Positions 16,517 to 44,233 of a stretch of 64,000 nucleotides of DNA are shown piece after piece. The first letter of the stretch is position 1, and every line of letters begins with the position of its first letter. Position numbers and translations under genes: made by a program. The notes beneath the pieces were generated by a model, which did no database searches, was not told the DNA's origin, and saw only the letters and a program-made list of their open reading frames with translations. This stretch comes from Cellulomonas wangsupingiae (GTDB lineage Bacteria; Actinomycetota; Actinomycetes; Actinomycetales; Cellulomonadaceae), in assembly GCF_024508275.1 (NCBI RefSeq), contig NZ_CP101989.1, forward strand, positions 1,550,001 to 1,614,000, written 5' to 3'.

Positions 16517-17375
<859 letters not shown>

Positions 17376-17379
<4 letters not shown>

Positions 17380-18146
17380 CCGCCGCGTCCGCCGGCCTGC
17401 TCCGGCAGGTCCTGCCGCCGGTCGTGCTCCTCGCGGCCCTCGTCGGGGCGTGGCACGCGCTCGTCGTGCTCGGTGACGTGCCCGCGTTCGTGCTGCCCGG
17501 GCCGGCGGCGATCCTCGACGAGCTGGTCACGTACCTCGGGCCGATCGCGTCGGCCGCGCGCGTCACCGGCACGAACGCCGCGGCCGGCCTCCTGCTCGGG
17601 TCCGCGCTGGGGGTGCTGCTCGCGGTCGCGGCCGGCCTCGTCCGTGTCGTCGACGCGCTGACCGAGCCGCTGGTCGCGGCGCTGGCCGTCGTGCCGATCG
17701 TCGCGCTGGCCCCCGTGCTGTACGCGATGTACGGCGCCGGCTCCGAGCAGGCCCGCGTCATCGTCGCCGCGCTCGCGGTGCTCGTCCCCGTGCACGTCAC
17801 GACGCTGCGGGGGCTGCGCCAGGTCCGGCCCGTGCACCGCGACCTCATGCGCGCGCTGGCCGTCCCGCGCGTGCGGGCCGCCCGCACCGTGACGATCCCC
17901 ACGGCCGTCCCGTACCTGTTCACGGGGCTGCGCATGGCGTCGTCGCTCGCCGTGATCTCCGCGATCGTCGCCGAGTACTTCGGCGGGCCCCGCTCGGGCA
18001 TCGGGTCGTTCATCACGACCGCTGCCGCCGGCTCCAACTACGCCCGGGCCTGGGCGTACGTGCTCGGCGGCGTCGTCGTCGGCCTGCTGTTCCACGGCGT
18101 CACGGTGGCTGCCGAGCACGTCGTCACGCGTCGCGCCGGCCGGTGA
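17376..18146 (+). CDS. ABC importer permease 2 (SsuC/TauC type)
   Basis: A 256-residue permease with five or six membrane segments and the coupling helix pattern DLMRALAVPRVRAARTVTIP. GTG at 17376 overlaps the ATPase stop (GTGA). A second, non-identical permease indicates a heterodimeric channel. The gap to the binding-protein gene is 85 bases and holds nothing beyond a ribosome site. Confidence 0.88.
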
Positions 18147-18231
18147 GGCCGGCGCGCGCACGTCCTCGACCGGCGGTCCCCGGGACGCCGACCCCCGCAC
18201 CGACACCGCACGTCCGACGAGAGGAGACGAC

Positions 18232-19380
18232 ATGAGGACCATGACGCGCTGGGGGGCGCCCCTGGCGGCGCTCGCCGCCGCAGGGCTGGTGCTGGCGGCG
18301 TGCTCGAGCACCGACGAGGCAGCGGCGACGGGGGACGGGACCGCCGCGGCCGGTGACCTCACGCCCGTCACGCTGCAGCTCCAGTGGCTCACGCAGGCCC
18401 AGTTCTCCGGCTACTACGCGGCCGTGGACCAGGGGTACTACGCGGACGAGGGGCTCGACGTGGAGATCCTGCCGTCGGGCGGCGACGTCGTGCCGCAGGA
18501 CGCCCTCGCGGCCGGCGAGGTCGACTACGCGATCGCCTGGGTGCCCAAGGTGCTCGGGTCGATCGAGCAGGGCGCGGACATCACGCACGTCGCCCAGGTC
18601 TTCGAGCGGTCCGCGACGCTGCAGGTCGCGTTCGCCGACTCCGGCATCGAGACGGTCGCCGACCTCGAGGGCAGGACCGTCGGCTCGTGGGGGTACGGCA
18701 ACGAGTGGGAGCTGTTCGCCGGCCTCAACCAGGCGGGCGTCGAGGACTTCCAGCTCGTCACGCAGGCGTTCGACATGCTGGGCCTGCTCAGCGGCGACAT
18801 CGACGCCGCGCAGGCCATGACCTACAACGAGTACGCGCAGCTCCTGGAGACCGTGGACCCGGACACCGGGCAGCTGTACACGCCCGAGGACTTCACGGTC
18901 ATCGACTGGAACGACGAGGGCGTCGCGATGCTGCAGGACGCGGTCTGGGCCGACGCGGGCCGCCTCGCCGACGACGAGCAGTACCGCGAGACCACCGTCA
19001 AGTTCCTCAAGGCGTCCCTCAAGGGATGGGTGTACGCGCGGGACAACCCGCAGGAGGCCGCCGAGATCGTGACGGCCGCCGGCTCCACGCTCGGCACGTC
19101 GCACCAGCTGTGGATGACCAACGAGGTGAACAAGCTCCTCTGGCCGTCGACCCGGGGCGTCGGGGTCGTCGACCCGGCCGCGTGGGACCGGACGGTCGAG
19201 CTGGCGACGAAGACGCACAACGAGACCGGTGCGACCATCATCACGACGCCGCCGCCCACGACGGCGTACACGACCGAGTACGTCGAGCAGGCCCTGGCCG
19301 AGCTGGCCGAGGAGGGGGTCGACACGTCGGGCGCCGACTTCGAGCCCCTCGAGGTGGAGCTGGCCGAGGGCGGCAGCTGA
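18232..19380 (+). CDS. NMT1/THI5-like substrate-binding lipoprotein
   Basis: A 382-residue lipoprotein: signal peptide, lipobox VLAACSS with Cys near residue 23, a short Ala/Thr linker, then an NMT1/THI5-like fold beginning LQLQWLTQAQFSGYYAA. Binding proteins of this family bring in pyrimidine-type molecules, including thiamine precursors, and sulfonates. Beside dihydropyrimidinase a pyrimidine or ureide ligand is plausible. The ATG at 18232 has GAGAGGAGA upstream. A strong terminator follows, so the main operon probably ends here. Confidence 0.88.
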   Translation: MRTMTRWGAPLAALAAAGLVLAACSSTDEAAATGDGTAAAGDLTPVTLQLQWLTQAQFSGYYAAVDQGYYADEGLDVEILPSGGDVVPQDALAAGEVDYAIAWVPKVLGSIEQGADITHVAQVFERSATLQVAFADSGIETVADLEGRTVGSWGYGNEWELFAGLNQAGVEDFQLVTQAFDMLGLLSGDIDAAQAMTYNEYAQLLETVDPDTGQLYTPEDFTVIDWNDEGVAMLQDAVWADAGRLADDEQYRETTVKFLKASLKGWVYARDNPQEAAEIVTAAGSTLGTSHQLWMTNEVNKLLWPSTRGVGVVDPAAWDRTVELATKTHNETGATIITTPPPTTAYTTEYVEQALAELAEEGVDTSGADFEPLEVELAEGGS

Positions 19381-19395
19381 CCCGCGACCCGAAGG

Positions 19396-19427
19396 TCCTG
19401 GGACGCCGGTCCGCCGGCGTCCCAGGA
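19396..19427 (+). terminator. Strong hairpin after the binding-protein gene
   Basis: Perfect 14-bp stem TCCTGGGACGCCGG/CCGGCGTCCCAGGA with a four-base loop, 16 bases past the stop codon. It probably ends or attenuates the transcript before the aminotransferase gene. Confidence 0.75.
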
Positions 19428-19478
19428 TCGACCGTGGCGTGACGACGACGTACGCCCGAGCGACCCTGGAGCACCGAC

Positions 19479-20813
19479 ATGGCAGCACGCACCGCGGCAG
19501 ACGGCCTCACGCTCGACGCGGAGGCGATCGCGCTCGACCGGGCGCACGTCTTCCACTCCTGGTCCGCGCAGGCGCACGTCGCGCCGTTCGTGGTCGCCGG
19601 CGGGTCCGGCTCGACGGTGTGGGACCACGCCGGGCACCGGTACCTCGACTTCTCGAGCCAGCTGGTCAACACGAACATCGGGCACCAGCACCCGCGGGTC
19701 GTCGACGCGATCCGCGAGCAGGCGTCGGTGCTGGCCACGGTCGCGCCGGCCACCGCGAACCTCACGCGCGGACGGGCGGCCGAGGCGATCCTCGCCCACG
19801 TGCCGGACGCCCTGACGAAGGTCTTCTTCACGAACGCGGGCGCCGACGCGGTCGAGAACGCGATCCGGCTGGCCCGCCTGCACACCGGGCGCGACAAGGT
19901 CGTGTCGCACTACCGGTCGTACCACGGCAACACCGGAGCCGCCGTCGTGGCCACCGGCGACTGGCGGCGGGTGCCCAACGAGTACGCGCGCGGTCACGTC
20001 CACGCGTTCGGCCCGTACCTGTACCGCACGGAGTTCTGGGCGACGACGCCGCAGGAGGAGTGCGCGCGTGCGCTGCACCACCTCGAGCGCGTCGTGCAGA
20101 GCGAGGGCGCGGACTCGGTCGCGGCGATCCTCCTGGAGACCGTGCCCGGCACCGCCGGCGTCCTGGTGCCGCCCGACGGGTACCTGGCGGGCGTGCGCGA
20201 GATCGCGGACCGGTACGGCATCGTGCTGGTCCTCGACGAGGTCATGGCCGGGTTCGGCCGCACCGGGTCGTGGTTCGCGTTCGACCAGCACGACGTCGTG
20301 CCCGACCTGGTGACGTTCGCCAAGGGCGTCAACTCCGGCTACGTCCCTGCCGGCGGTGTGCTCATCAGCTCGCGGATCGCCGCGACGTTCGACGAGCGGG
20401 TATTCCCCGGTGGCCTCACGTACTCGGGGCACCCCCTGGCGATGGCCGCGATCGTCGCGACGATCGGCGCGATGGAGGACGAGGGCGTCGTCGAGAACGC
20501 CGCCGCGATCGGCCGCGACGTGCTCGGGCCGGGCCTCGCGGAGCTCGCGTCCCGGCAGCCCCTGGTGGGTGAGGTGCGCGGCACCGGCGTGTTCTGGGCC
20601 GTCGAGCTGGTCACCGACCGCGACACCCGGACGCCCGCCCCGGCGTCGGTCGTCGGCGCCCTCAAGGCCGCGTGCCTGGCCCGCGGGCTGCTGCCGTTCG
20701 TCGCCGAGAACCGGGTGCACGTCGTGCCGCCGTGCGTCGTCACGCCGGACGAGGCACGCCGCGGCCTGGCGGTCCTCGACGAGGCGCTGACGGAGGTCAC
20801 CGCCACGCGCTGA
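19479..20813 (+). CDS. Class III PLP aminotransferase (probable beta-alanine/omega-amino acid transaminase)
   Basis: A 444-residue fold-type I aminotransferase. FFTNAGADAVENAIR, the LLETVPGTAG and LVLDEVMAGFGRTG segments and the PLP lysine Lys282 (VTFAKGVNSG) are class III hallmarks. In the reductive pyrimidine pathway such enzymes convert beta-alanine to malonate semialdehyde, which fits the position after dihydropyrimidinase, beta-ureidopropionase and the importer. 4-Aminobutyrate or another omega-amine could also be the substrate. The ATG at 19479 lacks a strong ribosome site. It sits behind a terminator, so it may have its own promoter. Confidence 0.87.
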   Translation: MAARTAADGLTLDAEAIALDRAHVFHSWSAQAHVAPFVVAGGSGSTVWDHAGHRYLDFSSQLVNTNIGHQHPRVVDAIREQASVLATVAPATANLTRGRAAEAILAHVPDALTKVFFTNAGADAVENAIRLARLHTGRDKVVSHYRSYHGNTGAAVVATGDWRRVPNEYARGHVHAFGPYLYRTEFWATTPQEECARALHHLERVVQSEGADSVAAILLETVPGTAGVLVPPDGYLAGVREIADRYGIVLVLDEVMAGFGRTGSWFAFDQHDVVPDLVTFAKGVNSGYVPAGGVLISSRIAATFDERVFPGGLTYSGHPLAMAAIVATIGAMEDEGVVENAAAIGRDVLGPGLAELASRQPLVGEVRGTGVFWAVELVTDRDTRTPAPASVVGALKAACLARGLLPFVAENRVHVVPPCVVTPDEARRGLAVLDEALTEVTATR

Positions 20814-20876
20814 CGCGACCGGACCGCGAGAGAGGCCCGTGCCATCCTCGTCCCACCACCGACCCCAGGAGAGCGC

Positions 20877-21641
20877 ATGACCACGTCCACCGACCGTCCC
20901 CGCCGCGCGCTCGTCACGGGCGCCTCGTCCGGGATCGGCGGCGCGACGGTCCGCCGCCTGCGCGCCGACGGCTGGGACGTCGTGGCGACCGCCCGCCGCG
21001 CCGACCGGCTCGCGGCGCTCGCCGAGGAGACGGGTGCCGACACGTTCGTGGCGGACGTGACGGTGGACGAGGACGTCTCCGCGCTGCTCGCGCACGTGCG
21101 CGCGACCGGCGGCCTCGACGCCGTCGTCAACAACGCCGGCGGTGCGTTCGGCCTCGACACCGTCGAGGAGGCGGACCTCGACGGTTGGCGTGCGATGTAC
21201 GAGCTCAACGTGCTCGGCACGCTGCGCGTGACCCAGGGCGTGCTCCCGCTGCTGCGCGAGCGCGGTGCCGGGGACGTGCTGGTCGTCACCTCGACGGCCG
21301 GTCACGGGCCGTACCCCGGCGGCGCGGGGTACACCGGCGTGAAGCACGCCGAGCGGATGCTCGCGACGACGCTGCGCTGGGAGCTGGTCGGGGAGCCGAT
21401 CCGGGTGATCGAGGTCGCCCCGGGCGCGGTCGCGACGGAGGAGTTCTCGCTCGTGCGCTTCGGGGGCGATGCGCAGCGCGCCGCCCAGGTGTACGAGGGG
21501 TACCAGCCGCTCGTCGCCGACGACGTCGCCGACACGATCGCGTGGAGCCTGTCGCGACCTGCGCACGTCAACGTCGACCTGCTGGTGGTGCGCCCGCGCG
21601 CGCAGGCGAACAACACGACGACCGCACGCACGGGCGTCTGA
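20877..21641 (+). CDS. Short-chain dehydrogenase, YdfG-like (candidate malonate semialdehyde reductase)
   Basis: A 254-residue classical SDR. The cofactor motif TGASSGIG is at 14-21, NNAG at 85-88, and the catalytic Ser/Tyr152/Lys156 in GYTGVKHAE. Arg residues after the first strands (TARRADRL) favour NADPH. The C-terminal RPAHVNVDLLVVRPRAQ resembles YdfG-type 3-hydroxy-acid dehydrogenases, which reduce malonate semialdehyde. The aminotransferase 64 bases upstream would make that compound from beta-alanine, so this could be the last detoxifying step. The specific substrate is an inference. The ATG at 20877 has a CAGGAGAG ribosome site. Confidence 0.8.
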   Translation: MTTSTDRPRRALVTGASSGIGGATVRRLRADGWDVVATARRADRLAALAEETGADTFVADVTVDEDVSALLAHVRATGGLDAVVNNAGGAFGLDTVEEADLDGWRAMYELNVLGTLRVTQGVLPLLRERGAGDVLVVTSTAGHGPYPGGAGYTGVKHAERMLATTLRWELVGEPIRVIEVAPGAVATEEFSLVRFGGDAQRAAQVYEGYQPLVADDVADTIAWSLSRPAHVNVDLLVVRPRAQANNTTTARTGV

Positions 21642-32066: not shown

Positions 32067-33483
32067 CGGCGTCGGGCTGCCGGCGGACTACGTGCCGATG
32101 GGCTCGCTCGCCCTCACGGACGGCGAGCGCTGGCCGACCCTCCCGGAGTCCGACCTGCGACGGGTGGCCGACGCGCGCGCCCACCCGGCGGCGCCGCACT
32201 GGCAGCACGAGACGGGTGACCGCCTGGAGCCGGCCGATCTCGCGGCCCTCGCGAGCCGGGCGCCGGTGTCCGCGAGTGCCGGCCCGTCACCGCCGGACTG
32301 GGTGGCGGCGCTCGTCGAGCGGGCGCACCGCACCGTGCCGCGGTACCGCGCGGCCGCCCGGGACGGACGCAGCGGCCCGACGACGCCGCTGCGCGACCTG
32401 CCGACGGTGACGCGGCGCGACCTCGTGACCGGGCTCGCGGCGCACGTCCCGCTCGACGTGCCCCTCGACAGGGTCCTGCAGGGCACGAGCTCGGGCAGCA
32501 CGGGCGCGGCGCTGCGGGTCCCGCTGCACCCGCGGACGGTCGCCGCGGACCTGCTGCTGCTGCACGCGCTGGTGACGGGCGCGGGCGCGTCGTGGCCGGC
32601 CGACCGGGCGCGCCTCGGGCTGGTGAACCTGGTCGACCAGCGTGCGGCGTTCACGTACGTGTCGGCGATGTCGGCGTTCCCGCGTCCCGTCGGGAGCCCG
32701 GCGCCCCTCATGGCGCGCGTGAACCTCGACGTCGGCGCGTGGCGCACGCCCGCCGACCGGGAGCGGTGGTTCGCGGAGCACGACCCGCAGGTCGTCAGCA
32801 CGAGCAGCGTGCCGCTGGTGCACCTCCTGGACCTCGCCGAGGCGGGCCTCGCCGTGCGTCCGGTCGCGGTCGTCAACGGTGCCACGCACGTGACGCCGGC
32901 GGTGCGCCGCCGGGTCCGCGACCTGTGGGCCGCACCGCTGGTCGACCTGTACGGGCTGCGCGAGACGGGTCCCGTGGCGGCCGCGTGCGACGCGGGGCGC
33001 GAGCACGCGCTCGTGGCGCGCCGGGTGCACGTGGAGGTGCTGGACCCGGCCGGCCGGCCGCTGCCGGCGGGCCGGCGCGGGGAGGTCGTCGTCACCGTCG
33101 ACGAGAACCCCTACCTGCCGCTGCTGCGGTACCGCACCGGCGACCACGCCGCGCTGGGCACCGACGACGCGGGGCGGCCCGTCCTCCTCGACCTCGAGGG
33201 GAGGGCCGCGGTGCGCTTCCTCGACGCGACCGGCGCCGCCCGCCCGTCCGTGGACGCGACGCAGGTGCTGCAGGCCGCGGGGCTCACCGCGTGGCACCTG
33301 CACCAGGACGCCGACGGCGACGTGCGGCTGAGCGCCGTGGGCGACGCCGCGGCGGCCGCAGCGGCGGTGCGCGCGGTGCGCGAGTGGCTGGGCCGACCCG
33401 TCGGGCTCGAGCTGCTCGGCGACGTGGGCGCGCTCGGGCAGGGCAAGCCGGCACGCTACTCGAGCGCGCTCGACCTGCCCTGA
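32053..33483 (+). CDS. PaaK-like adenylate-forming enzyme at the end of the MoxR operon
   Basis: A 476-residue member of the phenylacetate-CoA ligase (PaaK)-like AMP-forming superfamily. The ATP-binding loop SSGSTGAALR lies near residue 145-154, the A5-type motif YGLRETGP near 300, and LPLLRYRTGDHA near 360. The C-terminal GQGKPARYS would carry the A10-type lysine. It could adenylate a carboxylate for ligation to CoA, an amine or a protein; the acceptor is unknown. There is no adjacent acyl-carrier protein or PaaK pathway gene. The ATG at 32053 overlaps the preceding gene by 14 bases. The 3' end overlaps the convergent PucR gene by 28 bases. Confidence 0.82.
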   Translation: MPTTDGVGLPADYVPMGSLALTDGERWPTLPESDLRRVADARAHPAAPHWQHETGDRLEPADLAALASRAPVSASAGPSPPDWVAALVERAHRTVPRYRAAARDGRSGPTTPLRDLPTVTRRDLVTGLAAHVPLDVPLDRVLQGTSSGSTGAALRVPLHPRTVAADLLLLHALVTGAGASWPADRARLGLVNLVDQRAAFTYVSAMSAFPRPVGSPAPLMARVNLDVGAWRTPADRERWFAEHDPQVVSTSSVPLVHLLDLAEAGLAVRPVAVVNGATHVTPAVRRRVRDLWAAPLVDLYGLRETGPVAAACDAGREHALVARRVHVEVLDPAGRPLPAGRRGEVVVTVDENPYLPLLRYRTGDHAALGTDDAGRPVLLDLEGRAAVRFLDATGAARPSVDATQVLQAAGLTAWHLHQDADGDVRLSAVGDAAAAAAAVRAVREWLGRPVGLELLGDVGALGQGKPARYSSALDLP

Positions 33484-35003
33484 CCCCGCCGGCCGTCCCC
33501 GGCTGCGGCGCCCGTCGCGGGTGACGGTCCGACCAGCCGGTGCGCCTCGAGAGCCAGGGCGAGGGCCGTGCGCGTCCGGGGGTCGTGCAGATCGGCACCG
33601 AGGAGCTCACCGATGCGCTGCAGGCGGTGCTTCATCGTGTTGTAGTGCACGAACAGCCGCCGCGCGGCCTCGGCGGCGTTGCCGAGCCCGAGGAACACCT
33701 CGAGCGTGCGGCACAGGTCGCCGTCGACCTGCAGGTCGTGCCGCAGCAGCGGCCCGACCTGGTCCTCGACGAAGTCTCGCAGCCGGTCGGGGGGCAGGCT
33801 CAGCACGAGCCGCTCGAAGCCGAGGTCGGCGTAGCGGGTCGTCGACCGGTGGGTCACGCCCGCGATGTGCAGGACCTCCTGGGCCGTGGCGTGGCTGCCC
33901 GGCAGCGCGGTCAACGTCGGCGCCGGGCAGCCGGACGCGACCACGGTCGGGCCGGCGCCGGCGCGCTCGAGCGCCTCCCGGAACGCCTCCTCCGCACGGG
34001 CGTGCGCCGGCGCGATCGCGACCACCTGCGTCCCCCGCAGCCACGCCACCGCCGTCGCTCCCAGCGTGCGCCGGGCCGCGGACTGCAGGGACCGTTCCGA
34101 CGGCGCCGTGGTGCACGCGGCCAGGAGCACCGTCGACGTCCCCCCGAGGTCCCACCCGAACAGCCGCGCCCGCTGCTCCAGCGCGTCGGCGTCCAGGCTG
34201 GTGGCGGTGACGAGCTCCTCGAGGAAGACGACGCGCAGGCGGCGGTCGAGCTCGATGCTCGCCAGCGCCTGGGCGATGTGCATCCCCGCCGCGAAGCAGG
34301 CCTGGCGGACCAGCCGGCGTTGCGCGAGCGACGGCTCGTCCTGCCCGCCGACGAGCACGTGCCCGCGTCGTACGCCGGCCACGGTGACGGGGAACTCCCA
34401 GCGCACCGTGCGTCGCCCCGGCGCGGCCGGCGTGTCCTCCGCCGGTGTCTGCGGCGACCCGCCGAGGACGAGAGCGTCGTCGGCCACGACCTCGACCGAG
34501 CGGTCCAGCGCGCCGGCCAGGGTCCGCGCGATCTCCTCCAGGCCGCCGCCGGCCAGCGCGATGCCGGTCAGGCGCTCGCGGATCACCTCGTCGTGGGCGG
34601 GCTCGGGGTCGTGCTCGGCGAGCACGACCCCGAGCACCGCCGTGATGACCTCGTTGAAGGACGTGTCACCGGGCACGACGAGCACCGGGAACGCGAGCTC
34701 GTCGGCGAGCTCGGCGAACCGGTCGGGCAACCGCTCGACGTACCGCAACGGCTTGATCGCGAGGGCCGCCAGGCCGCGGGAGTGCAGGAGGCGGAGCAGG
34801 CCGACGAGGCTCTCGGGCCGGTCCCGCACGGGGTAGGCCGTGGTGAGGAGCAGCTCACCGGGCTTGATGTACGGCTCGATGTCGGGGACCTCCATGACGT
34901 TGACACCGCTGACCAGCCGGTCGATGCCGGAGTCACCCGCCAGCACGTACGTCCCCCGCAGGGGCGCCAGGGTCATGACCTCGCGGACGGTCAGTGTCGC
35001 CAC
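33456..35003 (-). CDS. PucR/CdaR-family transcriptional regulator
   Basis: A 515-residue regulator with an N-terminal PucR purine-catabolism-type sensory domain (about residues 5-125, SGVNVMEVPDIEPYIKPGELLL) and a C-terminal PucR helix-turn-helix (about 430-490, EVFLGLGNAAEAARRLFVHY). PucR proteins control purine, ureide and related nitrogen-catabolism genes. The GTG at 35003 gives MATLTVREVM, the usual start, behind AAGGGGCAGCC. It is divergent from the allH-allF-allG cluster with a 93-base gap, so it is the likely regulator. Confidence 0.9.
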   Translation of the reverse strand: MATLTVREVMTLAPLRGTYVLAGDSGIDRLVSGVNVMEVPDIEPYIKPGELLLTTAYPVRDRPESLVGLLRLLHSRGLAALAIKPLRYVERLPDRFAELADELAFPVLVVPGDTSFNEVITAVLGVVLAEHDPEPAHDEVIRERLTGIALAGGGLEEIARTLAGALDRSVEVVADDALVLGGSPQTPAEDTPAAPGRRTVRWEFPVTVAGVRRGHVLVGGQDEPSLAQRRLVRQACFAAGMHIAQALASIELDRRLRVVFLEELVTATSLDADALEQRARLFGWDLGGTSTVLLAACTTAPSERSLQSAARRTLGATAVAWLRGTQVVAIAPAHARAEEAFREALERAGAGPTVVASGCPAPTLTALPGSHATAQEVLHIAGVTHRSTTRYADLGFERLVLSLPPDRLRDFVEDQVGPLLRHDLQVDGDLCRTLEVFLGLGNAAEAARRLFVHYNTMKHRLQRIGELLGADLHDPRTRTALALALEAHRLVGPSPATGAAAGDGRRGQGRSSALE

Positions 35004-35084: not shown

Positions 35085-35099
35085 TACGGTCACAGTATG
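35085..35099 (+). promoter_or_regulatory. Leaderless-type promoter of the AllH-AllF-AllG cluster
   Basis: TACGGT (35085-35090) stands six bases before the ATG at 35097, with no ribosome site between them. The 93-base divergent gap should also contain the PucR binding site and the regulator's own promoter. CAGTTCGGACG (35050) and ACTTCGGACG (35020) are imperfect direct repeats of TTCGGACG 30 bases apart, which could be operator half-sites. Confidence 0.5.
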
Positions 35100-35969
35100 A
35101 CGAACAGGTGCATCTCGGGCGTCGGGCCGGCGCGGCTCGCCACCGACGCGCCCGTGCCGGACGTCCTCGTCACGGCGAGGGTCGTCCACGTCGGACGCAC
35201 CTCGGTCGTCCTGCGCACGGCGGACGGCACGCTGGTCCCGGTGACGTCGGCCGCCCACGGCCTGGTGCCCGGTGGCGTGTGCCTGGCGGCTGCCGCCGGC
35301 GACCCCGGGCCGGCGCTGCGCGCGGTGGCCGGGGCGGCGCCGAACCGCGACCTGTGGCTGACGTCGCTGCAGGGTGCGCCGCGCGTGGACCTGGTGGTGC
35401 CGAAGGGTGCCGTCGACGCGGGCGCCGCCCGGGCGCTGCTCACCGGTGCGCTCGTCGCGGCGTCGTCCGGTGGTGGGCGGGGTGTCATGGACCCCGGCCC
35501 GGCACGCCGGGGGGCGCGCACCCTGGTCGGTGCCGCCGCCGGGGACGACCCGCGCGGCGTGCGCGCCGTGCTGCACCGGCTCGTCGGCGTGGGACCGGGG
35601 TCGACCCCCAGCGGCGACGACGCGGTCGTCGGCGTGCTCGCGGGCCTCGACCGGCGGGACGACGCCGCCGCCGCGCGCGCCGGTGCGGCGATCCGTCGCG
35701 CGCTGCCCGCCGTCCTGCACCGCACGACGAGCCTGTCGCGCCACGCCCTGGCGGCGGCGCTGCGCGGTCAGGTCGCCGAACGGGTCCAGCTGCTCGTGGC
35801 CGCCACCGCCGACGCGGCGCTCGTGCCCGGCGCGCTCGCGTCGGCGCGCACGTGGGGCGCCAGCTCCGGGCTCGACCTCGCGGCCGGCGTGGGAGCCGGC
35901 GCGCTCGGTGACGCGGCCGCGGCCCACCCGCCGGCCCGGCCCGCCGACGAGCATCGGAGGACCGCATGA
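35097..35969 (+). CDS. allH: DUF2877 protein, oxamate carbamoyltransferase subunit AllH-like
   Basis: A 290-residue DUF2877 protein. GVGPGSTPSGDDAVVGVLAGL in the middle is the signature stretch of this family, whose E. coli member (formerly YlbF) is now described as the AllH subunit of oxamate carbamoyltransferase. The enzyme converts oxalurate plus phosphate to oxamate plus carbamoyl phosphate. The ATG at 35097 lies six bases after a -10 hexamer. Its stop overlaps allF by four bases. Together with AllF, AllG and a carbamate kinase downstream the set is complete, though the true carbamoyl donor here is not known. Confidence 0.8.
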   Translation: MTNRCISGVGPARLATDAPVPDVLVTARVVHVGRTSVVLRTADGTLVPVTSAAHGLVPGGVCLAAAAGDPGPALRAVAGAAPNRDLWLTSLQGAPRVDLVVPKGAVDAGAARALLTGALVAASSGGGRGVMDPGPARRGARTLVGAAAGDDPRGVRAVLHRLVGVGPGSTPSGDDAVVGVLAGLDRRDDAAAARAGAAIRRALPAVLHRTTSLSRHALAAALRGQVAERVQLLVAATADAALVPGALASARTWGASSGLDLAAGVGAGALGDAAAAHPPARPADEHRRTA

Positions 35970-37432
35970 CCACGACCAGCGCCGGCGCGCTGGCGGCGCG
36001 CGTGCTCCCGCGTCTCTACCGCGACTCCGTGACGCTCATGGCGCTGGCGTCGTCGCTCGAGCGCCGCGCGGGGGTGACGCGCGCCGGTGCCGTCATGGGG
36101 ACCCCCGGCAACCTCACCGTGCTGGAACGGTCCGGGATGCGGCCCGTCGGCCTCGCCCCGGCGCCCGACGACCTCGTGCTGGTCGTGCGCGGGCTCGACG
36201 AGGATGTGGTGGCGGCCGCGCTGGACGCCGGCGAGGCGGGCCTCGTGGCGGTGGAGCCGGAGCGCGGCGGCCGGCGCCGGCCCGTCCCGCAGACGGTCGG
36301 CGAGGGCCGGGCGGCCGACCCCGGCGCGACGCTCGCGGTCGTCTCGACGCCCGGCACCTACGCACCGGTCGTCGTCGAGCAGGCCCTGCGTGCAGGGCTG
36401 CACGTCCTGTGCTTCTCCGACAACGTGACGACGGCCGACGAGGTCCGGCTCAAGGCGCTGGCCGTGCGCCGGCGCCTGCTGCTCATGGGACCGGACTGCG
36501 GCACGGCGATCCTCGACGGCGTGCCGCTCGGGTTCGCCAACGCGGTGCGTCGCGGTCCGGTCGGCATCGTCGCGGCGTCCGGCACCGGCGCGCAGGAGGT
36601 CTCCTGCCTGCTGCACCGCGCGGGGACGGGCGTCTCACAGCTGGTCGGCGTCGGCGGCCGGGACCTGTCGGCCGAGGTGGGCGGCACGATGACCGACCTC
36701 GCGCTGGACCTGCTGAGCACGGACGACACCACGGCCGTCGTGGTCGTCGTGTCCAAGCCCCCCGCCGCGCAGGTGGCGCAGCGGCTGCTCGCCCGGCTCG
36801 CGGGGCTCGGCAAGCCCGCGGTGGCGTGCCTGCTGGGGCAGGACGACACCGACGGAGCGGTTCCCGTGCGCGGCACGCTCGAGGGCGGCGCGCGGCTCGC
36901 CGCGACCCTGGTCGGCGCGCCGCTCCACGTCGGGGCCGTCGTGCCGCCACCGGCCCCGGCCGCGCGGGGCGTGCTGGGCCTCTACACAGGGGGGACCCTC
37001 GCCGCCGAGACCCGGGTCGTCCTGGCGCGGGCCGGTGTCGACGCCCAGGTGCTCGACCTCGGGGCCGACGAGTACACCGTCGGCCGGCCGCACCCGATGA
37101 TCGACCCGTCCGCCCGCGCGGAGCGGGTCGCGGCGGCAGGCGGCCGTGCCGACGTCGGTGTCCTGCTCGTCGACCTCGTCCTGGGGTTCGGCGCCGCCGC
37201 CGACCCGGCGACGCCCCTGGCACGGGCCGCCGGGACGGCGGTCGCCGCCGCGCGTGCCGACGGCCGTGACCTCGTCGTGCTCGCGTCCGTGTGCGGCACG
37301 GACGGCGACCCGCAGGGCCTCGACGCCGCACGCCGCACCCTGGAGGGAGCCGGCGTGCTCGTCCACCCGTCCAACGCCGCCGCGGCGCGCACCGCCGTCG
37401 CGCTCGTCGCCGGGGGCGGGGTGCCCGCGTGA
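35966..37432 (+). CDS. allF: FdrA/AllF-like subunit (succinyl-CoA-synthetase-related)
   Basis: A 488-residue protein of the FdrA family, distantly related to succinyl-CoA synthetase alpha and beta subunits. SDNVTTADEVRLKALA, MGPDCGTAIL and AASGTGAQEVS are conserved segments. In E. coli this is the AllF (FdrA) subunit of oxamate carbamoyltransferase. ATG at 35966 overlaps the allH stop, with CGGAGG upstream. It should act with AllG and AllH as one cytoplasmic complex making carbamoyl phosphate. Confidence 0.88.
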   Translation: MTTTSAGALAARVLPRLYRDSVTLMALASSLERRAGVTRAGAVMGTPGNLTVLERSGMRPVGLAPAPDDLVLVVRGLDEDVVAAALDAGEAGLVAVEPERGGRRRPVPQTVGEGRAADPGATLAVVSTPGTYAPVVVEQALRAGLHVLCFSDNVTTADEVRLKALAVRRRLLLMGPDCGTAILDGVPLGFANAVRRGPVGIVAASGTGAQEVSCLLHRAGTGVSQLVGVGGRDLSAEVGGTMTDLALDLLSTDDTTAVVVVVSKPPAAQVAQRLLARLAGLGKPAVACLLGQDDTDGAVPVRGTLEGGARLAATLVGAPLHVGAVVPPPAPAARGVLGLYTGGTLAAETRVVLARAGVDAQVLDLGADEYTVGRPHPMIDPSARAERVAAAGGRADVGVLLVDLVLGFGAAADPATPLARAAGTAVAAARADGRDLVVLASVCGTDGDPQGLDAARRTLEGAGVLVHPSNAAAARTAVALVAGGGVPA

Positions 37433-38802
37433 TCGCCGGCGGCGTGCGGGTCCTCAACGTCGGCCTCCCGGCCGTCGTCCAGGGGGTGCCCGCGCAGGAC
37501 GTCGTCCAGCTCGACTGGCGCCCGCCCGCGTTCGGCGACGTGGCGGCCGCACGTCTCGGCGTCGTCCTCGACGACGACGTCACGCGCGCCGCCAACCGTC
37601 GCGCGCTCGCGGCGGTGCACGCGGTGCGCCCGCAGCTCGTGGCGGTGCGTCCTGCCCGTGACGTCGTCCCGGGCCTCGGGGAGGGACGCACGCTGCTGCA
37701 CGCAGGCCCGCCGCTCGAGGTCGAGCGGATGTGCGGACCGGTCCGCGGCGCGCTGATCGGTGCGGTCCTGCTCGAGGGCTGGGCCGGCACGCCCACCGAC
37801 GCCCTGGCCCTGATCGAGGCGGGCGGCGTCACGCTCGACGCGTGCCACCACCACGGCGCGGTCGGCCCGATGGCGGGTGTGCTGGCCCCGTCGATGCCGG
37901 TGCTCGTCGTGCAGGACGGGGCCCGCCGGGCGTACGCGTCGCTCAACGAGGGCCTGGGGCGGGTGCTGCGGTTCGGCGCGTTCGACGCCGAGGTCGTCGA
38001 CCGGCTGCGGTGGATGCGCGACGTGCTCGGGCCCGTGCTGGACGGCGCCCTGCGGGCCGGCGGGTCGGTGGACGTGACCTCCCTGGTCGCGCAGTCGCTG
38101 ACCATGGGCGACGAGGGGCACAACCGGTGCACGGCCGCGACGCTCCTGCTCGCGCGGCGTCTCGCGCCGTGCGTCGCGGAGCAGGACCGGGGCGTCGAGG
38201 TGCTGCGGTTCCTGGCGGAGAACGACCACTTCGCCCTCAACCTGTCGATGGCCGCGGCCAAGCTGTCCATGGACGCCGCCGTGGGCGTCGAGCACTCCAC
38301 GCTGGTGACCGCGATGGCGCGCAACGGCGTCGAGTTCGGGCTGCGCGTCGCCGGGACGGGGGAGCGGTGGTTCACGGCCCCCGTGGACGCGGCGGACGGC
38401 CTGTTCTTCCCGGGTTACGGCATCGCCGACGCCAACCCGGACCTCGGGGACTCCGCCATCACGGAGACGCTCGGCATCGGCGGCTTCGCGATGGCGGCGG
38501 CGCCGGCGATCACGCTCTTCGTCGGCGGCACCCCCGACGACGCGCTGGACACGACGCGCTCGATGGCGCGCATCACGCTGGGGCCGCACCCGGCGTTCCG
38601 GCTCCCGGCCCTGAACTTCGCCGGCGCACCCAGCGGCATCGACGTCCTCAAGGTCCTCGACACCGGCGTGCTGCCCGTCATCAACACCGGGATCGCGCAC
38701 CGGGAGGCGGGCGTCGGGCAGATCGGCGCCGGGATCGTCGAGGCGCCTGCAGGGGTCTTCCTCCAGGCGGTCCGCGCGCTGCACGAGGTGCGGGTCCGAT
38801 GA
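37429..38802 (+). CDS. allG: DUF1116 protein, AllG-like subunit
   Basis: A 457-residue DUF1116 protein (E. coli YlbE, renamed AllG). [35 protein letters not shown] and [12 protein letters not shown] are typical. It is expected to be a subunit of the transcarbamoylase with AllF and AllH. GTG at 37429 overlaps the allF stop (GTGA) and its TGA overlaps the carbamate kinase ATG, so all subunits and the kinase are translated in a chain. Confidence 0.88.
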
Positions 38803-40499
38803 CCGGCACCGTCCTGCTCGCCGTGGGCGGCAACGCGCTCGTTCTCGACGGGGAGCCGGGGTCGGTCGCCCGCCAGCAGGAGCGCGCGGCGCGCTTCGCC
38901 GACCAGGTCGCCGACCTGGTCGGCGACGGCCGGCAGGTCCTGGTCACGCACGGCAACGGGCCGCAGGTCGGCTTCATCCTGCGCCGCGGCGAGCTCGTCG
39001 CCCCGGACGCGAGCGTCGAGGGCCTGCCGGAGCTGCCGCTGTGGCTCGCGGTGGCCGACTCCCAGGGCGGGATCGGCCACCTCCTGGCGGTGGCCGTCGA
39101 CTCCGCGCTCGAGCGACGCGGGCTCGACTCACGGGCTGTCGCCGTGCTCACGCACGTCGAGGTCGACGCCGACGACCCGGCCTTCGCCCTCCCCACGAAG
39201 CCGATCGGCGCCGCGATGACGAGCTCGACCGCCCGGGCGCGCACCGCCGAGGGCTGGACGGTCATCGAGACCGCGCCGGGGGTCCACCGCCGGGTCGTGC
39301 CCAGCCCCCGGCCCCGACGTGTGGTGGAGGCCGAGCAGATCCGCGCGCTCGTGCACACCGGCGCCGTCGTGGTCGCGGCCGGCGGTGGGGGCATCCCCGT
39401 CGTCCGCGCCGCGGACGGTTGGCACGGCGTGGACGCCGTCGTCGACAAGGACCGCGCCTCGGCGCTGCTCGCGGCGTCCGTCGGCGTCGACACCCTCGTG
39501 CTCGTCACGGGCGTCGATGAGGTGAGCGTCGGGCGGGGGACACCGCGGCAACGGGCGCTGCGCGAGGTCGACCCCGTCGAGCTGCGCGCGCACCTCGACG
39601 CGGGCGAGTTCCCGCCGGGCTCGATGGGTCCCAAGGTCGAGTCCGCGCTGCAGTTCGTCGCCGACGGTGGCAGACGCGCCGTCATCACGTCCCTGCCCCG
39701 CCTGCGCGACGCGCTCGAGGGCCGGTCCGGGACGCTCCTGACCGCCCGGGACCGCCCGGCGCCCCCGACGCCCACAGCCCTCTCGCCCGCGTCGACACCT
39801 GGAGAGCCGATGATCACCCTGGCCGCCGACCCGTTCCCCTACGTCTTCGACCCCCGCCGCGTCGCGCTGCTGTGCATCGACTTCCAGCGCGACTTCATGG
39901 AGGCCGGGGGCTTCGGCGAGTCCCTCGGGAACGACGTGTCGCGGCTGCGCGGCGCGATCGAGCCGACGAGCCGCGTGCTGGAGGTCTTCCGGGACCGCGG
40001 CTGGCCGGTCATCCACACCCGCGAGGGCCACCGCCCGGACCTCACCGACCTGTTCCCCGCCAAGCGGGACCGCGGCAGCCCCACGCTGCGCATCGGCGAG
40101 GACGGCCCGATGGGCCGCGTGCTGGTCCGCGGCTCCGCCGGTCACGGCATCGTCCCCGAGCTCGCGCCCGTCGAGGGCGAGGTCGTCCTCGACAAGCCCG
40201 GCAAGGGGTCGTTCTACGCGACGGACCTCGAGACCATCCTGCGGGCCCGGGGCATCACGAGCCTCGTCGTCACGGGCGTCACCACCGAGGTGTGCGTCCA
40301 GACGACGGTCCGCGAGGCGAACGACCGCGGCTTCGAGTCCCTCGTCCTGTCCGACTGCACGGCGTCGTACTTCCCGCAGTTCCACCGCTCCGCACTCGAC
40401 ATGTTCTGCGCCCAGGGCGGGATCGTGGGCTGGGTCGCCACCTCCGACGCGCTCCTGACCGCCCTGCGCACCACGACGCACGAGGAGGTCCCACGATGA
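38799..40499 (+). CDS. Carbamate kinase fused in frame to a biuret-hydrolase-like cysteine amidohydrolase
   Basis: One uninterrupted 566-codon frame. Residues 1-315 are carbamate kinase ([44 protein letters not shown]), which makes ATP from carbamoyl phosphate. A Pro/Thr linker (about 318-337) joins it to an isochorismatase-fold hydrolase, residues 338-566, with candidate triad Asp361 (CIDFQRDF), Lys466 (DKPGKGSF) and Cys499 (TTEVCV). [10 protein letters not shown] and DKPGKGSF closely resemble biuret hydrolase. An internal ATG at 39810 with GGAGAG upstream could also yield the hydrolase alone (229 residues). No stop codon separates the two parts in the given sequence. The stop overlaps the permease ATG. 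Confidence 0.87.
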
Positions 40500-42463
40500 G
40501 CACTGCCGCACGCGAGGTGTCGACCGCCGACCGTCCCGCCGGCACGCCCGGCCGTCTGCCGTGGTGGACCCCGGGGGACTGGAACGGCCTGTTCGGCCTC
40601 GGCACCAACGTCCTGCTCAACGTCATCGTCCTGACGGGCCTGTGCCTGGCGGTCGTCCAGATCCCGGGCGACACCGTCTACGGGCGGATCCTGCCCGCCC
40701 TGGGCATCGCGCTGCCGCTGGGCAACATCTGGTACGCCGTGCTCGCCCGGCGGCTCGCCCGCCGGGAGGGCCGCTCCGACGTGGCGGCGCTGCCGTACGG
40801 GCCGAGCGTGCCGCACACGTTCATCGTCGTCTTCGTCGTCATGCTGCCGGTGCTGCTGCGCACGCAGGACCCGCTGGCCGCCTGGCGTGCGGGGCTGGCC
40901 TGGGCGTTCATCATCGGCTGCATCGTCCTGCTCGGGGCGGTCTTCGGCCCGTGGATCCGGCGCTGGACGCCGCGGGCGGCGCTCCTCGGCGCGCTCGCGG
41001 GCATCTCGATCACGTTCATCTCGATGAGCCCGGCCGCGCAGATGTGGCAGGCGCCGTGGATCGCGTTCGTGGCCTTCGGTTTCATCCTCGTGGGCTGGCT
41101 CGGTGGGCGTCGCATGCCCTTCGGGGCGCCGGTCGGCCTGGTGGCGGTGCTCGTCGCGACGGCGGTCGCCTGGGCCGCGGTCGCCGCCGGCTGGTCGGGC
41201 ATCCTCGAGCCGAGCGCGGTCACGCAGTCGGTCGCGGACCTCGCGCTGCACCTGCCGCTGCCGTCGGCCGACGTCGTCACAGGGCTGCAGGACATCGCCC
41301 CGCTGCTGGCCTCGGCGATCCCTCTGGGCATCTACAACTTCACCGAGGGCATGACCAACGTGGAGTCCGCCGCCGCGGCGGGGGACCGGTACTCCGCGCG
41401 GCAGGTGCTCACGGCGGACGGGCTCGGGGCCGTCGTCGGCTCGTTCCTCGGCTCGCCGTTCCCGCCCGCGGTGTACATCGGGCACCCGGGCTGGAAGGCG
41501 GTCGGCGGACGCGTCGGGTACTCGCTGGCGACGGGCGTCGTGGTCGGCCTCGTGTGCTTCACCGGGCTGGTCGGCACGTTCCTGGCGGTGTTCCCCATGC
41601 AGGCGCTCGTCCCGGTCCTGCTGTACATCGGCCTCGTCATCGGCGCCCAGGCGTTCGACGTCAACCCGCGACGGTACGCGCCGGCGATCGTGCTGGCGAT
41701 CGTCCCCAGCCTCGCCGAGTGGGCGACCGGGCTGATCGACAACGCGCTCGCCGCCGCGGGCACGTCCGCGGAGGAGGTCGGGACCGGTGCGCTCGTCGCC
41801 AACGGCGTCGTCTACGACGGCCTGCGGCTGCTCGGGCAGGGCGCCGTCCTCGTCGGCATCCTGCTGGGCGCGATCGCGTGCTTCGTGATCGACCGCCGCC
41901 TGTACGCCGCGGCGATCACGTCCGGCATCGCCGCGGTGCTGTCGTTCTTCGGGCTCGTCAACGCGCTCGAGGTGGGCGTCAACGCCTCGCCGGCCGTGAC
42001 GCTGGGCTACGTCCTGCTCGCCGTGCTGCTCGCGTCGTTCGGGTGGCGCCTGCGGCACGAGCGGGACGACGCGCTGGACGACGAGCTGCTCTTCGTCAAC
42101 GGCAGCCTCATGCGCGGGCTCGAGCTGCACGCGCACCTCGACGGCGCCGAGCTGGTGGCGGAGACGACGACCGCACCGCGGTACCGCGTGCACGCCGTCG
42201 ACGGCCGGCACCCGGGCATGTACCGCGTCGCGGACGACGAGGAGGGGGCGGCCGTCCATGGCGAGCTGTACCGCGTGCCGGCCGAGGTGCTGGTGCGGGT
42301 GGTCGAGGGCGAGCCGGCCGGGCTGTACCGGGGGCCCGTGGAGCTCGCGGACGGTCGCCTCGTGCCCGGCATCCTCGACCACCGGGCGAGGGCGCAGGAG
42401 CACCCCGAGATCACGCAGCACGGCGGCTGGCGGGAGTACCTGGCGACGACGTCGCCGGCCTGA
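40496..42463 (+). CDS. NCS2/AzgA-like permease fused to an allophanate-hydrolase C-terminal-like domain
   Basis: A 655-residue fusion. Residues 30-525 form about 12-14 hydrophobic segments of a purine/ureide-permease-like transporter ([35 protein letters not shown]). Residues of about 529-655 are soluble and resemble the gamma-glutamylcyclotransferase-like C-terminal domain of allophanate hydrolase: [44 protein letters not shown], and HGGWREY. In allophanate hydrolases that domain handles the carboxycarbamate product. Fused here it could bind or process the imported ureide at the membrane. ATG at 40496 overlaps the upstream stop. It is the last gene of the cluster. Confidence 0.85.
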
Positions 42464-42524: not shown

Positions 42525-43283
42525 TCACAGGTGACGCGCGGCGTACTCGTGCAGGGCGTCCCGCACGAAGGCGGCACCCCGCTCGTCGTCGCCGTAGACG
42601 CGGGCGAACCGCGGGTCGGCGACGTACATGTCGGCCAGCCCGAGCACGTACCCGCGGGCCGGTGCGTCGCCCTCGCGGGGCGTCCCGGGCACGTCGCGCA
42701 GCCAGTGCACGTGCCGGCGCGCGAGCTCCTGCGCCTCGTCCGACGCGGGGTCGGTGCCCGCGGCCGCCGCCGCCGCCCAGTCCCCGGCGAGCGTCGCCGA
42801 GCGCTCCTGCCACGCGGTCCGCTCGTCGTCGCTCCGGCTGCGCCACCAGGCGTCGCCGGCGGCGTACGCGTCGGCGCCCCAGCGCTCCTCGACCTCCTGC
42901 CGGTGCTGCGTGTGGTCGAACCCGTCGAACATCTCCTCGGCCATGAGACCGGCTCCTTCGTGTCGTGCGGTGAGGGTCCGGAGCACCGACGCGGCCTGGC
43001 GTGCCAGGCGGTCCTGCTCGGCCTCGAGCCAGGCGAGGTGGCGGCGCAGCGCCGTTTCCTCGTCGGTCTCGCGGTCGAGCACGCGGCGGACGTCCGCCAG
43101 GCCGAGACCGAGGTCGCGCAGCAGCAGGATCCGCTGCAGGCGCACGAGGGCGTCGTCGTCGTACCAGCGGTAGCCGTTGGCGCCGACGCGGCTCGGGGTG
43201 AGCAGCCCGATCTGGTCGTAGTGACGCAGCGTGCGGCTCGTCGTGCCGGTCAGGCGCGCGACCTCCTGGATGGACGCCTCCAC
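42525..43283 (-). CDS. MerR-family regulator with TipAS-type drug-binding domain
   Basis: A 252-residue regulator. Residues 1-70 are the MerR winged helix (TSRTLRHYDQIGLLTPSRV, NGYRWYDDDAL), followed by a coiled-coil dimerisation helix to about 110 and a C-terminal TipAS domain (MFDGFDHTQHRQEVEERWG), which in TipA binds thiopeptide antibiotics. The GTG at 43283 has a GGAGGAGCG ribosome site. A promoter with the 19-bp spacer typical of MerR targets lies 40 bases upstream, so autoregulation is likely. There is no obvious drug-resistance gene beside it. Confidence 0.92.
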   Translation of the reverse strand: MEASIQEVARLTGTTSRTLRHYDQIGLLTPSRVGANGYRWYDDDALVRLQRILLLRDLGLGLADVRRVLDRETDEETALRRHLAWLEAEQDRLARQAASVLRTLTARHEGAGLMAEEMFDGFDHTQHRQEVEERWGADAYAAGDAWWRSRSDDERTAWQERSATLAGDWAAAAAAGTDPASDEAQELARRHVHWLRDVPGTPREGDAPARGYVLGLADMYVADPRFARVYGDDERGAAFVRDALHEYAARHL

Positions 43284-43322
43284 CGCTCCTCCTCGTCGGG
43301 TGCTCCGGTGTGGACCTGCTTC

Positions 43323-43353
43323 ACGGTAGGAGCTGACGCGACGTCAAGGTCAA
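43323..43353 (-). promoter_or_regulatory. MerR-type promoter with 19-bp spacer and central palindrome
   Basis: On the minus strand -35 TTGACC (43348-43353) and -10 TACCGT (43323-43328) are separated by 19 bases, too long for normal RNA polymerase use but standard for promoters that MerR regulators untwist. The spacer contains the inverted repeat TGACG-TCG-CGTCA. It drives the merR gene 40 bases downstream. Confidence 0.65.
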
Positions 43354-43372
43354 GCGGTGGTGGCGGGGTTCT

Positions 43373-44233
43373 TCAGGAGGCGGGCGGGTTGTTGCGCAGC
43401 CACCGCGAGTCGTCGTTGACGTACGCGTAGTACAGCCCGATGAGCAGGCCGCCCCCGACGAAGTTGCCGATCAGCGCCAGCCCGACGTTGCCGGCGGCCA
43501 GCCCCACGTCGATGCCCTCCTGCAGCCCGACGATGGTGAACAGCACCGTGTTGGCGACCGAGTGCTCCAGCCCGAGGAAGGCGAAGATGAAGACCGCCAC
43601 GATCATGACGAGCGACTTCGTGAGGTCGTCCTTGATGAGTCCGTTGTAGACGAGCAGCATCGCCAGGTTGATGCAGAAGTTGCACAGCACGGCCCGCACC
43701 ACGAGGTCCGCCCAGCCGGTCGGTCCGTCCGTCACGAACGCGAGCTTGTGCTCCACCGACGCCACCATCTGCGCGAGCGTCGCGCCCTCGGCGAGCGTCG
43801 AGAACCGCACCAGCAGGGCGACCAGGAGCCCGCCGACGAAGTTGCCGACGTAGCACAGGCCGAGCAGCCGCAGCGCGCGGCCCCACGTCGTGCGCCGGTG
43901 GTAGGCGCCGATGGTGACGATCATCATGTTCGAGGTGAGGAGCTCGGAGCGCGAGTAGTAGATGAACACCAGCGCCCAGCCGAACGTGACCGCCGCGACC
44001 AGCCGGCCGAGCTGGTACAGCGTCCCGTCACCGACGGTGACCTGGTCGAACGCCGCGATGACGCCGTAGTGCGCGCCGTACAGCAGGCCGATGATGATGC
44101 CCGCCATCGCCGCGCGCATGAGGTAGCGGCGGCCCAGGGCGCCGGCCATCGTGGACTTGGTCTCGAGCGCCTCCAGCACCGTGCTGATGAAGAACTTGCC
44201 CGGGAACAGCGGGGAATCGGTACCGGCACTCAC
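43373..44233 (-). CDS. Formate/nitrite transporter family channel
   Basis: A 286-residue FNT-family membrane protein with six to seven hydrophobic segments. RSELLTSNMMIVTIGAYH, GNFVGGLLVALLV, LCNFCINLAMLL and FLGLEHSVANTVLF are family signatures; His in LEHSVAN is the central pore His. FNT channels carry formate, nitrite or hydrosulfide. The start at 44233 is GTG and lacks a good ribosome site. No nitrate-reductase or formate-lyase gene is near, so the substrate is open. It is divergent from the phosphoribosyltransferase gene. Confidence 0.88.
   Translation of the reverse strand: MSAGTDSPLFPGKFFISTVLEALETKSTMAGALGRRYLMRAAMAGIIIGLLYGAHYGVIAAFDQVTVGDGTLYQLGRLVAAVTFGWALVFIYYSRSELLTSNMMIVTIGAYHRRTTWGRALRLLGLCYVGNFVGGLLVALLVRFSTLAEGATLAQMVASVEHKLAFVTDGPTGWADLVVRAVLCNFCINLAMLLVYNGLIKDDLTKSLVMIVAVFIFAFLGLEHSVANTVLFTIVGLQEGIDVGLAAGNVGLALIGNFVGGGLLIGLYYAYVNDDSRWLRNNPPAS

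Follow-up and report, generated by a model that had tools for sequence, protein, structure and literature searches.

Which compound is consumed by an operon that joins the three subunit families of an oxamate-carbamoyltransferase-type complex, AllF, AllG and AllH, to a carbamate kinase and an amide hydrolase? The question is raised by a 64,000-nucleotide stretch of Cellulomonas wangsupingiae (contig NZ_CP101989.1, positions 1,550,001 to 1,614,000), referred to here as the window. The operon occupies positions 35097-42463 of the window as five consecutive open frames, and each of the four start/stop junctions is a 4-base overlap. An earlier annotation of the same DNA, the original prediction, suggested that biuret or a similar ureide may be imported and hydrolysed, and that its carbamoyl group may be phosphorolysed to carbamoyl phosphate so that ATP is gained. 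The operon is tentatively proposed here to be one version of a widespread module that recovers energy from an acyl-urea, with triuret as the likeliest substrate, a reading that is given a little less than an even chance. The gene content, residues, trees and co-occurrence described below are observations.

The isochorismatase-like hydrolase (IHL; 39810..40499, + strand, PF00857) is predicted to be of the triuret hydrolase (TrtA) type because of its model score, residues and position in the tree. The original prediction had described it as biuret-hydrolase-like, and its assignment as a biuret hydrolase (BiuH) is rejected on the same three lines of evidence. The best match in the PDB is 6xix, TrtA of Herbaspirillum, with 279 bits and 60.6% identity over 208 residues, compared with 253 bits and 57% for the biuret hydrolase 6xjm and 219 bits and 49% for Rhizobium BiuH 6azo. 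The hydrolase reaches 270.5 bits against the BiuH equivalog model NF050097, which is below the cut-off of 370. The available part of PMC7948467 lists F35, N41, A134, E160 and Y187 as TrtA residues that differ from those of BiuH (Y, Y, S, D and T, respectively) and reports a TrtA specificity ratio for biuret of 1.7e-5, about four orders of magnitude below triuret. According to the same text, the A134S exchange was not deleterious, E160D had half of the activity, and F35Y, N41Y and Y187T had less than 10%. The window hydrolase has F, N, S, E and Y at these five positions. The catalytic residues D24, K129 and C162 of TrtA are all present in it, as are F29, F35, N41, E72, K132, E160, Y187, Q202 and I205, and A134 is replaced by Ser. 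BiuH carries Y, Y, D, T and V at positions 35, 41, 160, 187 and 205, where the window hydrolase carries F, N, E, Y and I.

The same signature recurs beside other AllG genes. The full six-residue TrtA signature FNEYQI is found in 33 of the 42 IHL pieces near AllG; four more are partial but agree with it (two of these are the halves of one Nitrospira gene), two deviate at one or two positions, and three, all from Nitrospira, are BiuH-type. In a tree of 42 rows, 36 rows, including TrtA and the window hydrolase, lie on one side of a branch with support 98/91, five BiuH-type rows group together (97/83), and RutB stands apart. Among the AllG neighbourhoods sampled, a BiuH-type hydrolase beside AllFGH and the kinase (AllFGHK) was found in three Nitrospira loci only.

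The hydrolase follows the complex and the kinase in the operon. The AllH-like subunit (35097..35969, +) matches PF11392 with 69.5 bits (cut-off 25). The AllF (FdrA)-like subunit (35966..37432, +) contains PF00549 and PF02629, scores 422.7 bits against NF004760, 10 bits below the cut-off of 433 of this FdrA model, and has 3dmy, 'Protein fdrA', as its closest solved structure. The AllG-like subunit (37429..38802, +) matches PF06545 with 291 bits (cut-off 27) and has a solved relative in 3clq, 'Uncharacterized protein'. The three genes lie side by side. The carbamate kinase (38799..39809, +) passes NF009007 over residues 1-315 (311.8 bits, cut-off 266) and stays below the 358 cut-off of TIGR00746 with 301.6 bits. 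Kinase and hydrolase share the stop-free open frame 38799-40499, in which the boundary was placed at the hydrolase start, 39810. This start is an ATG with GGAG upstream, in frame with the kinase, and an own hydrolase start with GGAG is found in 11 of 12 actinobacterial loci including the window, even where the kinase is in another frame. A kinase-hydrolase fusion was dropped as a defining feature, since the joint frame is open in just five of these 12 loci, the window counted.

The distribution of these genes was examined in 142 AllG neighbourhoods, from which two duplicates had been dropped: 60 actinobacterial stretches, 78 loci from a GTDB-wide scan (the best 80 of 591 confirmed loci), two from E. 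coli K-12, one from E. coli CFT073, and the window. The module, defined as an IHL with a free or fused AH_C domain and without allophanate hydrolase (AtzF), is present in 28 of them. All 28 contain a carbamate kinase, 27 contain AllF (L055 ends there), and AllH was detected in 23. AH_C occurs at 28 of 39 loci with an IHL and at 1 of 103 others (p 1e-19, uncorrected for kinship). The module loci belong to Actinomycetota (14), Pseudomonadota (11), Chloroflexota (1), Bacteroidota (1) and Nitrospirota (1), and 27 of the 28 stretches have no BiuH-type IHL. A module locus of Chryseobacterium may be transferred or a contaminant; its AllG groups with those of Enterobacteriaceae. The other neighbourhoods contain an AtzD-like ring-opening hydrolase (18), an IHL without AH_C (8), a YahJ-like amidohydrolase (6), AllC/AllD (3), an IHL with AtzF (3), AtzF (2), AH_C only (1) or other genes (73, several on short contigs).

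The usual order in Proteobacteria is IHL-(AllH)-AllF-AllG-kinase-AH_C-permease, the permease being CodB-like or of the window's type, and the order in Actinobacteria of the window's kind is AllH-AllF-AllG-kinase-IHL-permease fused to AH_C. The fused and unfused versions consist of the same parts. E. coli CFT073 has the same gene set in unfused form, and its AH_C is c4763, solved as 5c5z. Of 5426 complete E. coli genomes, 1542 (about 28%) contain the stretch from hydrolase to AH_C with a coverage of ≥80%, and 127 of 1616 module places are on plasmids. In E. coli Nissle 1917, genes for the hydrolase, AllH, AllF, AllG, the kinase, AH_C and the permease follow one another.

Across the five phyla, the module stretches are mostly without allantoin genes alongside. 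At the set thresholds, no relative of E. coli AllA, AllB, AllC, AllD or AllE was found in 27 of the 28 stretches; the single All-type match of the window is a dihydropyrimidinase at about 13.1-14.5 kb, and weaker matches are an AllD-like one in L051 (167 bits) and an AllB-like one in L115 (87 bits). The AllG tree (72 of 137 rows in its careful version) places K-12 AllG in a four-member clade (100/100), whose other members are two AllD-linked relatives and a further sequence, apart from the module AllGs. The latter form an actinobacterial group of 12 (100/100) or fall into a mostly proteobacterial group of 28 rows (100/99), which also holds TrtA-linked, AtzF-linked and one AtzD-linked member; L115 is apart from both groups. 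The module was either assembled more than once or lost and kept unevenly, because well-supported branches of the tree force at least two changes of the module label. A single AllG clade for all ureide modules, with support 82 in a quick tree, was not recovered in the careful tree and was rejected.

From these parts, we infer the reactions of the pathway, the cargo of the permease and the fate of allophanate. A putatively UraA-type permease, judged by its fold, would import a planar ureide. The TrtA-type hydrolase would remove one terminal amide as ammonia and yield 1-carboxybiuret, in line with its residues and the published TrtA reaction. AllFGH would then convert HOOC-NH-CO-NH-CO-NH2 and Pi to carbamoyl phosphate and allophanate, a step suggested by chemistry and gene linkage. 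Carboxybiuret is oxalurate (HOOC-CO-NH-CO-NH2) with one NH inserted, and the corresponding AllFGH reaction on oxalurate yields oxamate and carbamoyl phosphate. Carbamate kinase, by the function of its family, would form ATP, ammonia and CO2 from carbamoyl phosphate and ADP. The allophanate might be handled by AH_C, by a second phosphorolysis or by a spontaneous reaction to urea. In the TrtA assay, carboxybiuret decays with a half-life near 20 min, as stated in the accessible portion of PMC7948467, and it is a substrate of AtzEG in Pseudomonas ADP according to that of PMC6219798. The import, amide hydrolysis, carbamoyl phosphorolysis and ATP recovery of the original prediction fit the gene set of five phyla.

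Two loci bear on the step at AllFGH. L123 and L131 have a full AtzF beside a TrtA-type IHL and AllFGHK, as expected if AllFGH leaves allophanate; in L131 the IHL is in two pieces, and BiuH is also present. A Nitrospira locus (L136:17765-18852) has TrtA followed by a free module-type AH_C, together with BiuH, AllFGHK and an ABC transporter ATPase. After TrtA, L131 has a full AtzF where L136 has the free AH_C.

The last frame of the operon encodes a permease domain (40496..42055, +) and an AH_C domain (42056..42463, +). The permease domain has no match in Pfam. The Foldseek search gave UraA 8oo1 as the best transporter match (E 3e-7; template modelling score 0.39 by query and 0.59 by target; root-mean-square deviation 8.7), with SLC26 and SVCT1 proteins close behind and AZG1 proteins as further matches; the structure model has a mean pLDDT of 78 and a pTM of 0.64. 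AH_C matches PF21986 with 109.6 bits (cut-off 27) and is 40% identical to 5c5z (c4763). The fusion of permease and AH_C is well supported: PF21986 is present in every one of the best 120 of 7364 homologue clusters, in a ranking that favours full-length fused proteins.

AH_C forms a module-specific subfamily. The frame of the window holds a relative of the C-domain only, without the AtzF amidase domain and a GAH-type motif. The motif VNG[ST]LMRG is found in 28 of 29 module copies (VNGSLMRG in the window) and VNGTLMKG in the remaining one; seven C-domain rows of AtzF, among which the ADP sequence appears twice, show a G.H motif instead. The Glu of the ELY/EIW stretch is common to both groups. 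All 29 module copies have Leu where AtzF C-domains have His, so the function of that domain is not transferable to AH_C. In the yeast enzyme, the His of this type of C-domain has a role. AH_C may act at import, because it is fused to the permease in relatives of the window and adjoins a permease gene in most proteobacterial modules.

Several points weigh against the triuret route, and they come from the hydrolase tree, AH_C, the neighbours of TrtA-type genes, archaeal contigs, the purine and urea genes of the genome, and AtzD-like enzymes. In the hydrolase tree, most module IHLs form a group (83/90) beside, not inside, the branch of characterised TrtA, which includes L081, L084 and L136, so the substrate of the module hydrolases may differ from triuret. 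With the AtzF His absent from 29 of 29 copies, AH_C was not assumed to be an AtzF-type decarboxylase. The separate IHL group would suit a different ureide, with hydrolase and AllFGH acting on another acyl-urea amide, such as a urate photo-oxidation product, and the permease-fused AH_C might process the imported compound first. Where triuret comes from in nature is described as unknown in the available text of PMC7948467. The window hydrolase has the named catalytic and substrate-contact residues of TrtA, which speaks for triuret, and a different ureide is considered unlikely.

The next alternative is the route of the original prediction: biuret taken up by the cell would be converted to allophanate by the hydrolase, and AllFGH would cleave this product with phosphate, giving carbamoyl phosphate and carbamate. 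The window hydrolase was searched against 396 actinobacterial genomes at E 1e-40, with up to seven candidates scored per genome, and 15 matches were found in 14 genomes. Eight are TrtA-type. Four of these adjoin AllFGH genes; the other four occur with the module permease family, three of them near AtzF or an AtzF amidase domain and two near an opposite-strand AllG-like gene. Of the seven non-TrtA hydrolases, six are BiuH-like at five or six of six positions and one is more deviant; none of the seven is near AllG in these genomes, as checked in short and in 14.5-19.5-kb stretches. The reverse search therefore ties AllFGH to TrtA-type hydrolases in these actinobacterial genomes. At the same threshold and candidate limit, the module IHL is the sole match in genomes G000, G237 and G560.

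The reverse search also provided the strongest remaining argument for the allophanate route, namely that AtzF can occupy the place of AllFGHK. L208 and L209 contain a TrtA-type IHL, the same permease and AtzF without AllFGHK, and L211 contains a TrtA-type IHL, AtzF and the permease with a lone AllG-like gene. These loci would also suit an IHL that makes allophanate, with AllFGHK resembling a stand-in for AtzF. The AtzF-like amidase domains of L208 (7824-9248) and L209 (8027-9592) are without AH_C and lie beside the TrtA-type hydrolase and the module permease. In the same direction, the comammox locus L136 combines BiuH, TrtA, AH_C and AllFGHK with no AtzF within its 21 kb, and the accessible part of PMC12625717 places biuH with allFGHK on contigs of ammonia-oxidizing archaea (AOA), a group outside the present sample. 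Against this stand the TrtA, not BiuH, signature of the IHL, the near inactivity of TrtA on biuret in the available text of PMC7948467, the absence of non-TrtA hydrolases near AllG in the reverse search, and an AH_C that would be idle if IHL and AllFGH were enough. The path from biuret through allophanate to AllFGH is thus weakened and is regarded as quite improbable.

An oxalurate branch would explain the operon through purine breakdown. Enzymes encoded elsewhere in the genome would take urate through allantoin, allantoate and ureidoglycine to oxalurate, AllFGH and the kinase would finish the path, and the substrates of the hydrolase and AH_C would be amides, oxamate-like or other. For E. coli, the available text of PMC11326118 gives proof of AllFGH activity on oxalurate/oxamate, and the regulator of the window is of the PucR type. 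At 3.12 Mb of the genome, 1.5 Mb from the window, lie uricase, allantoinase (536 bits, cut-off 358), a class-V aminotransferase, an allantoate-amidohydrolase-like enzyme (475.5 bits, just below the 479 cut-off) and xanthine-dehydrogenase-type domains. A class-V aminotransferase of this type can make oxalurate. Because the genome has allantoin-pathway enzymes, oxalurate could be present. The original prediction had found no allantoinase, allantoate or ureidoglycolate gene; this holds for the cluster and fails for the genome, and allantoin-pathway genes elsewhere in the genome, which it had named as counter-evidence if co-regulated with the cluster, are present. The urate/allantoin cluster (L192:4821-19501; 3.11-3.13 Mb) includes an AtzH-like and amidase open frame.

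Other observations speak against the oxalurate branch. The purine cluster has this AtzH-like and amidase frame of its own, K-12 AllG is in a separate clade, and AllA-AllE relatives are missing from the 27 stretches noted above. Among 16 module genomes searched (from the 28 loci), allantoinase above the cut-off was found in seven, urease in ten and allophanate hydrolase above the cut-off in three. Nine of the 16 thus have no allantoinase above the cut-off, and an enzyme from a different allantoinase family may serve in some of them. Because an allantoinase above the cut-off is missing from 6 of 10 carriers in the family of the window, the module seems not to depend on the allantoin pathway. The oxalurate branch is regarded as quite improbable as well.

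The weakest alternative, in which carboxybiuret is first decarboxylated to biuret by AH_C or spontaneously and AllFGH yields carbamoyl phosphate and urea, draws on the short half-life of carboxybiuret given above (PMC7948467, in the part available) and the two ureases of the genome, and it is very unlikely, as urease matches are missing from 6 of the 16 module genomes, AH_C lacks the His of the AtzF C-domain, and there would be no task for the AtzF that L123 and L131 have beside TrtA-type IHL and AllFGHK. Urease enrichment in the module carriers of the family, which would have backed urea as an end product of the triuret route, was not seen (5 of 10 vs 57 of 190, p 0.29), and this support was given up. 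No allophanate hydrolase (AtzF) above the cut-off was found in the genome of the window.

The AtzD-like hydrolases beside AllFGH in 18 of the 142 neighbourhoods (L067, L069, L073, L083, L094, L096-L098, L100, L101, L104, L108, L140, L151, L158, L159, L167 and L174) also bear on the substrate of the complex. The cyanuric acid hydrolase model is passed by all four tested. The product of cyanuric acid hydrolase is carboxybiuret. All three enzymes compared with PDB entries are nearest to Frankia 5hwe, 'Barbiturase' (498-540 bits), and reach at best 309-316 bits with proven cyanuric acid hydrolases. As model and PDB tests disagree, these neighbours were not used as proof that AllFGH meets carboxybiuret. 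To our knowledge, the Frankia 5hwe enzyme has no known substrate. The linkage to AllFGH predicts a ring-opened acyl-urea product for the AtzD-like enzymes, for example oxalurate from parabanate. L050, L052 and L062, from the bacterial family of the window, have a YahG-type AllFGH and kinase without IHL or AH_C, two of them with the permease family, and may represent another front end to AllFGH.

A broader claim, for which the chances are put clearly below one half, can be stated jointly. A family of acyl-urea phosphorylases built around AllFGH would obtain ATP from HOOC-X-CO-NH-CO-NH2 ureides. The substrates of AllFGH would be oxalurate, carboxybiuret and ureidomalonate, and its front ends AllD, the TrtA-type hydrolase and the ring-opening class near 5hwe. 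The TrtA-type module would perform substrate-level phosphorylation from a urea oligomer, with AH_C as a new enzyme working with the importer.

The module consists of known parts, and two papers, PMC12625717 (2025) and PMC12928451 (2026), report in their available portions that these lie together. E. coli K-12 AllFGH and AllK (PMC11326118, as far as available) resemble the window cluster in having a catabolic carbamate kinase in the operon of the three subunit families; in contrast, the window cluster has no allantoin genes, has a TrtA-type hydrolase, AH_C and a permease instead, and belongs to another AllG clade. The TrtA-(TrtB)-BiuH-AtzF triuret pathway of Herbaspirillum/Rhizobium, as given in the accessible text of PMC7948467, shares the catalytic and contact residues of its first enzyme, whereas the window cluster has AllFGH, kinase and AH_C instead of BiuH and AtzF. 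In the comammox and AOA loci of PMC12625717, trtA and/or biuH adjoin allFGHK; the part of that paper at hand reads allFGHK as oxalurate degradation beside triuret/biuret genes, whereas one pathway with a standing AH_C is proposed here. Region GR29 of extraintestinal pathogenic E. coli (PMC12928451), with CodB-, YqeA-, YahG-, FdrA- and RutB-like genes, equals the E. coli set L110 by gene list, and in the available text it is discussed with pyrimidine breakdown, unlike the present reading. The cyanuric acid pathway AtzD-AtzEG-AtzH-AtzF (PMC6219798, as far as available) shares the intermediates carboxybiuret and allophanate and the AH_C-type domain of AtzF, but its steps are hydrolytic, no carbamate kinase is among its genes, and its AH_C subfamily is different. 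Among the matches listed from the open-licence literature, only PMC12625717 and, for the E. coli set, PMC12928451 concern a TrtA-AllFGH linkage, and none was found that unites TrtA and AllFGH in one ATP-recovering path. A paper on in vivo expression in uropathogenic E. coli was not used, as it concerns the K-12-type fdrA/ylbE genes.

The surroundings of the operon include regulators and other catabolic genes. A PucR-family regulator (33456..35003, − strand; PF07905 with 106 bits, PF13556, PF17853) is divergent from the operon, with 93 bases between its start and that of AllH as the starts were chosen. With it, the AllH, AllF, AllG and kinase genes, their overlaps and the PucR regulator that the original prediction had listed were confirmed by profile matches and 4-base overlaps. 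Directly downstream, on the other strand, lie genes for a MerR/TipAS-type regulator and a formate/nitrite-type channel (42525-44233). A likely cluster for reductive pyrimidine breakdown at 10642-21638 includes the dihydropyrimidinase (528.7 bits, cut-off 393), a MocR-like regulator, an N-carbamoylputrescine-amidase-like protein, an NMT1/THI5-like binding protein, an aminotransferase and a short-chain dehydrogenase; of these proteins, the dihydropyrimidinase and, by subfamily, the aminotransferase are the only ones above a curated NCBIfam cut-off.

If the proposed pathway is true, bacteria of several phyla and a large proportion of E. coli strains could use triuret as a source of nitrogen that also yields energy. 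Oxidation of urate is one possible origin of triuret, which also contaminates urea fertiliser, as stated in the available text of PMC7948467. The E. coli gene set of the solved protein c4763 would gain a function, and the reading can be tested in the probiotic strain Nissle 1917, which carries the full set. The biuret-hydrolase and pyrimidine readings of these genes would be corrected, and AllFGH would be widened to an ATP-recovering enzyme family.

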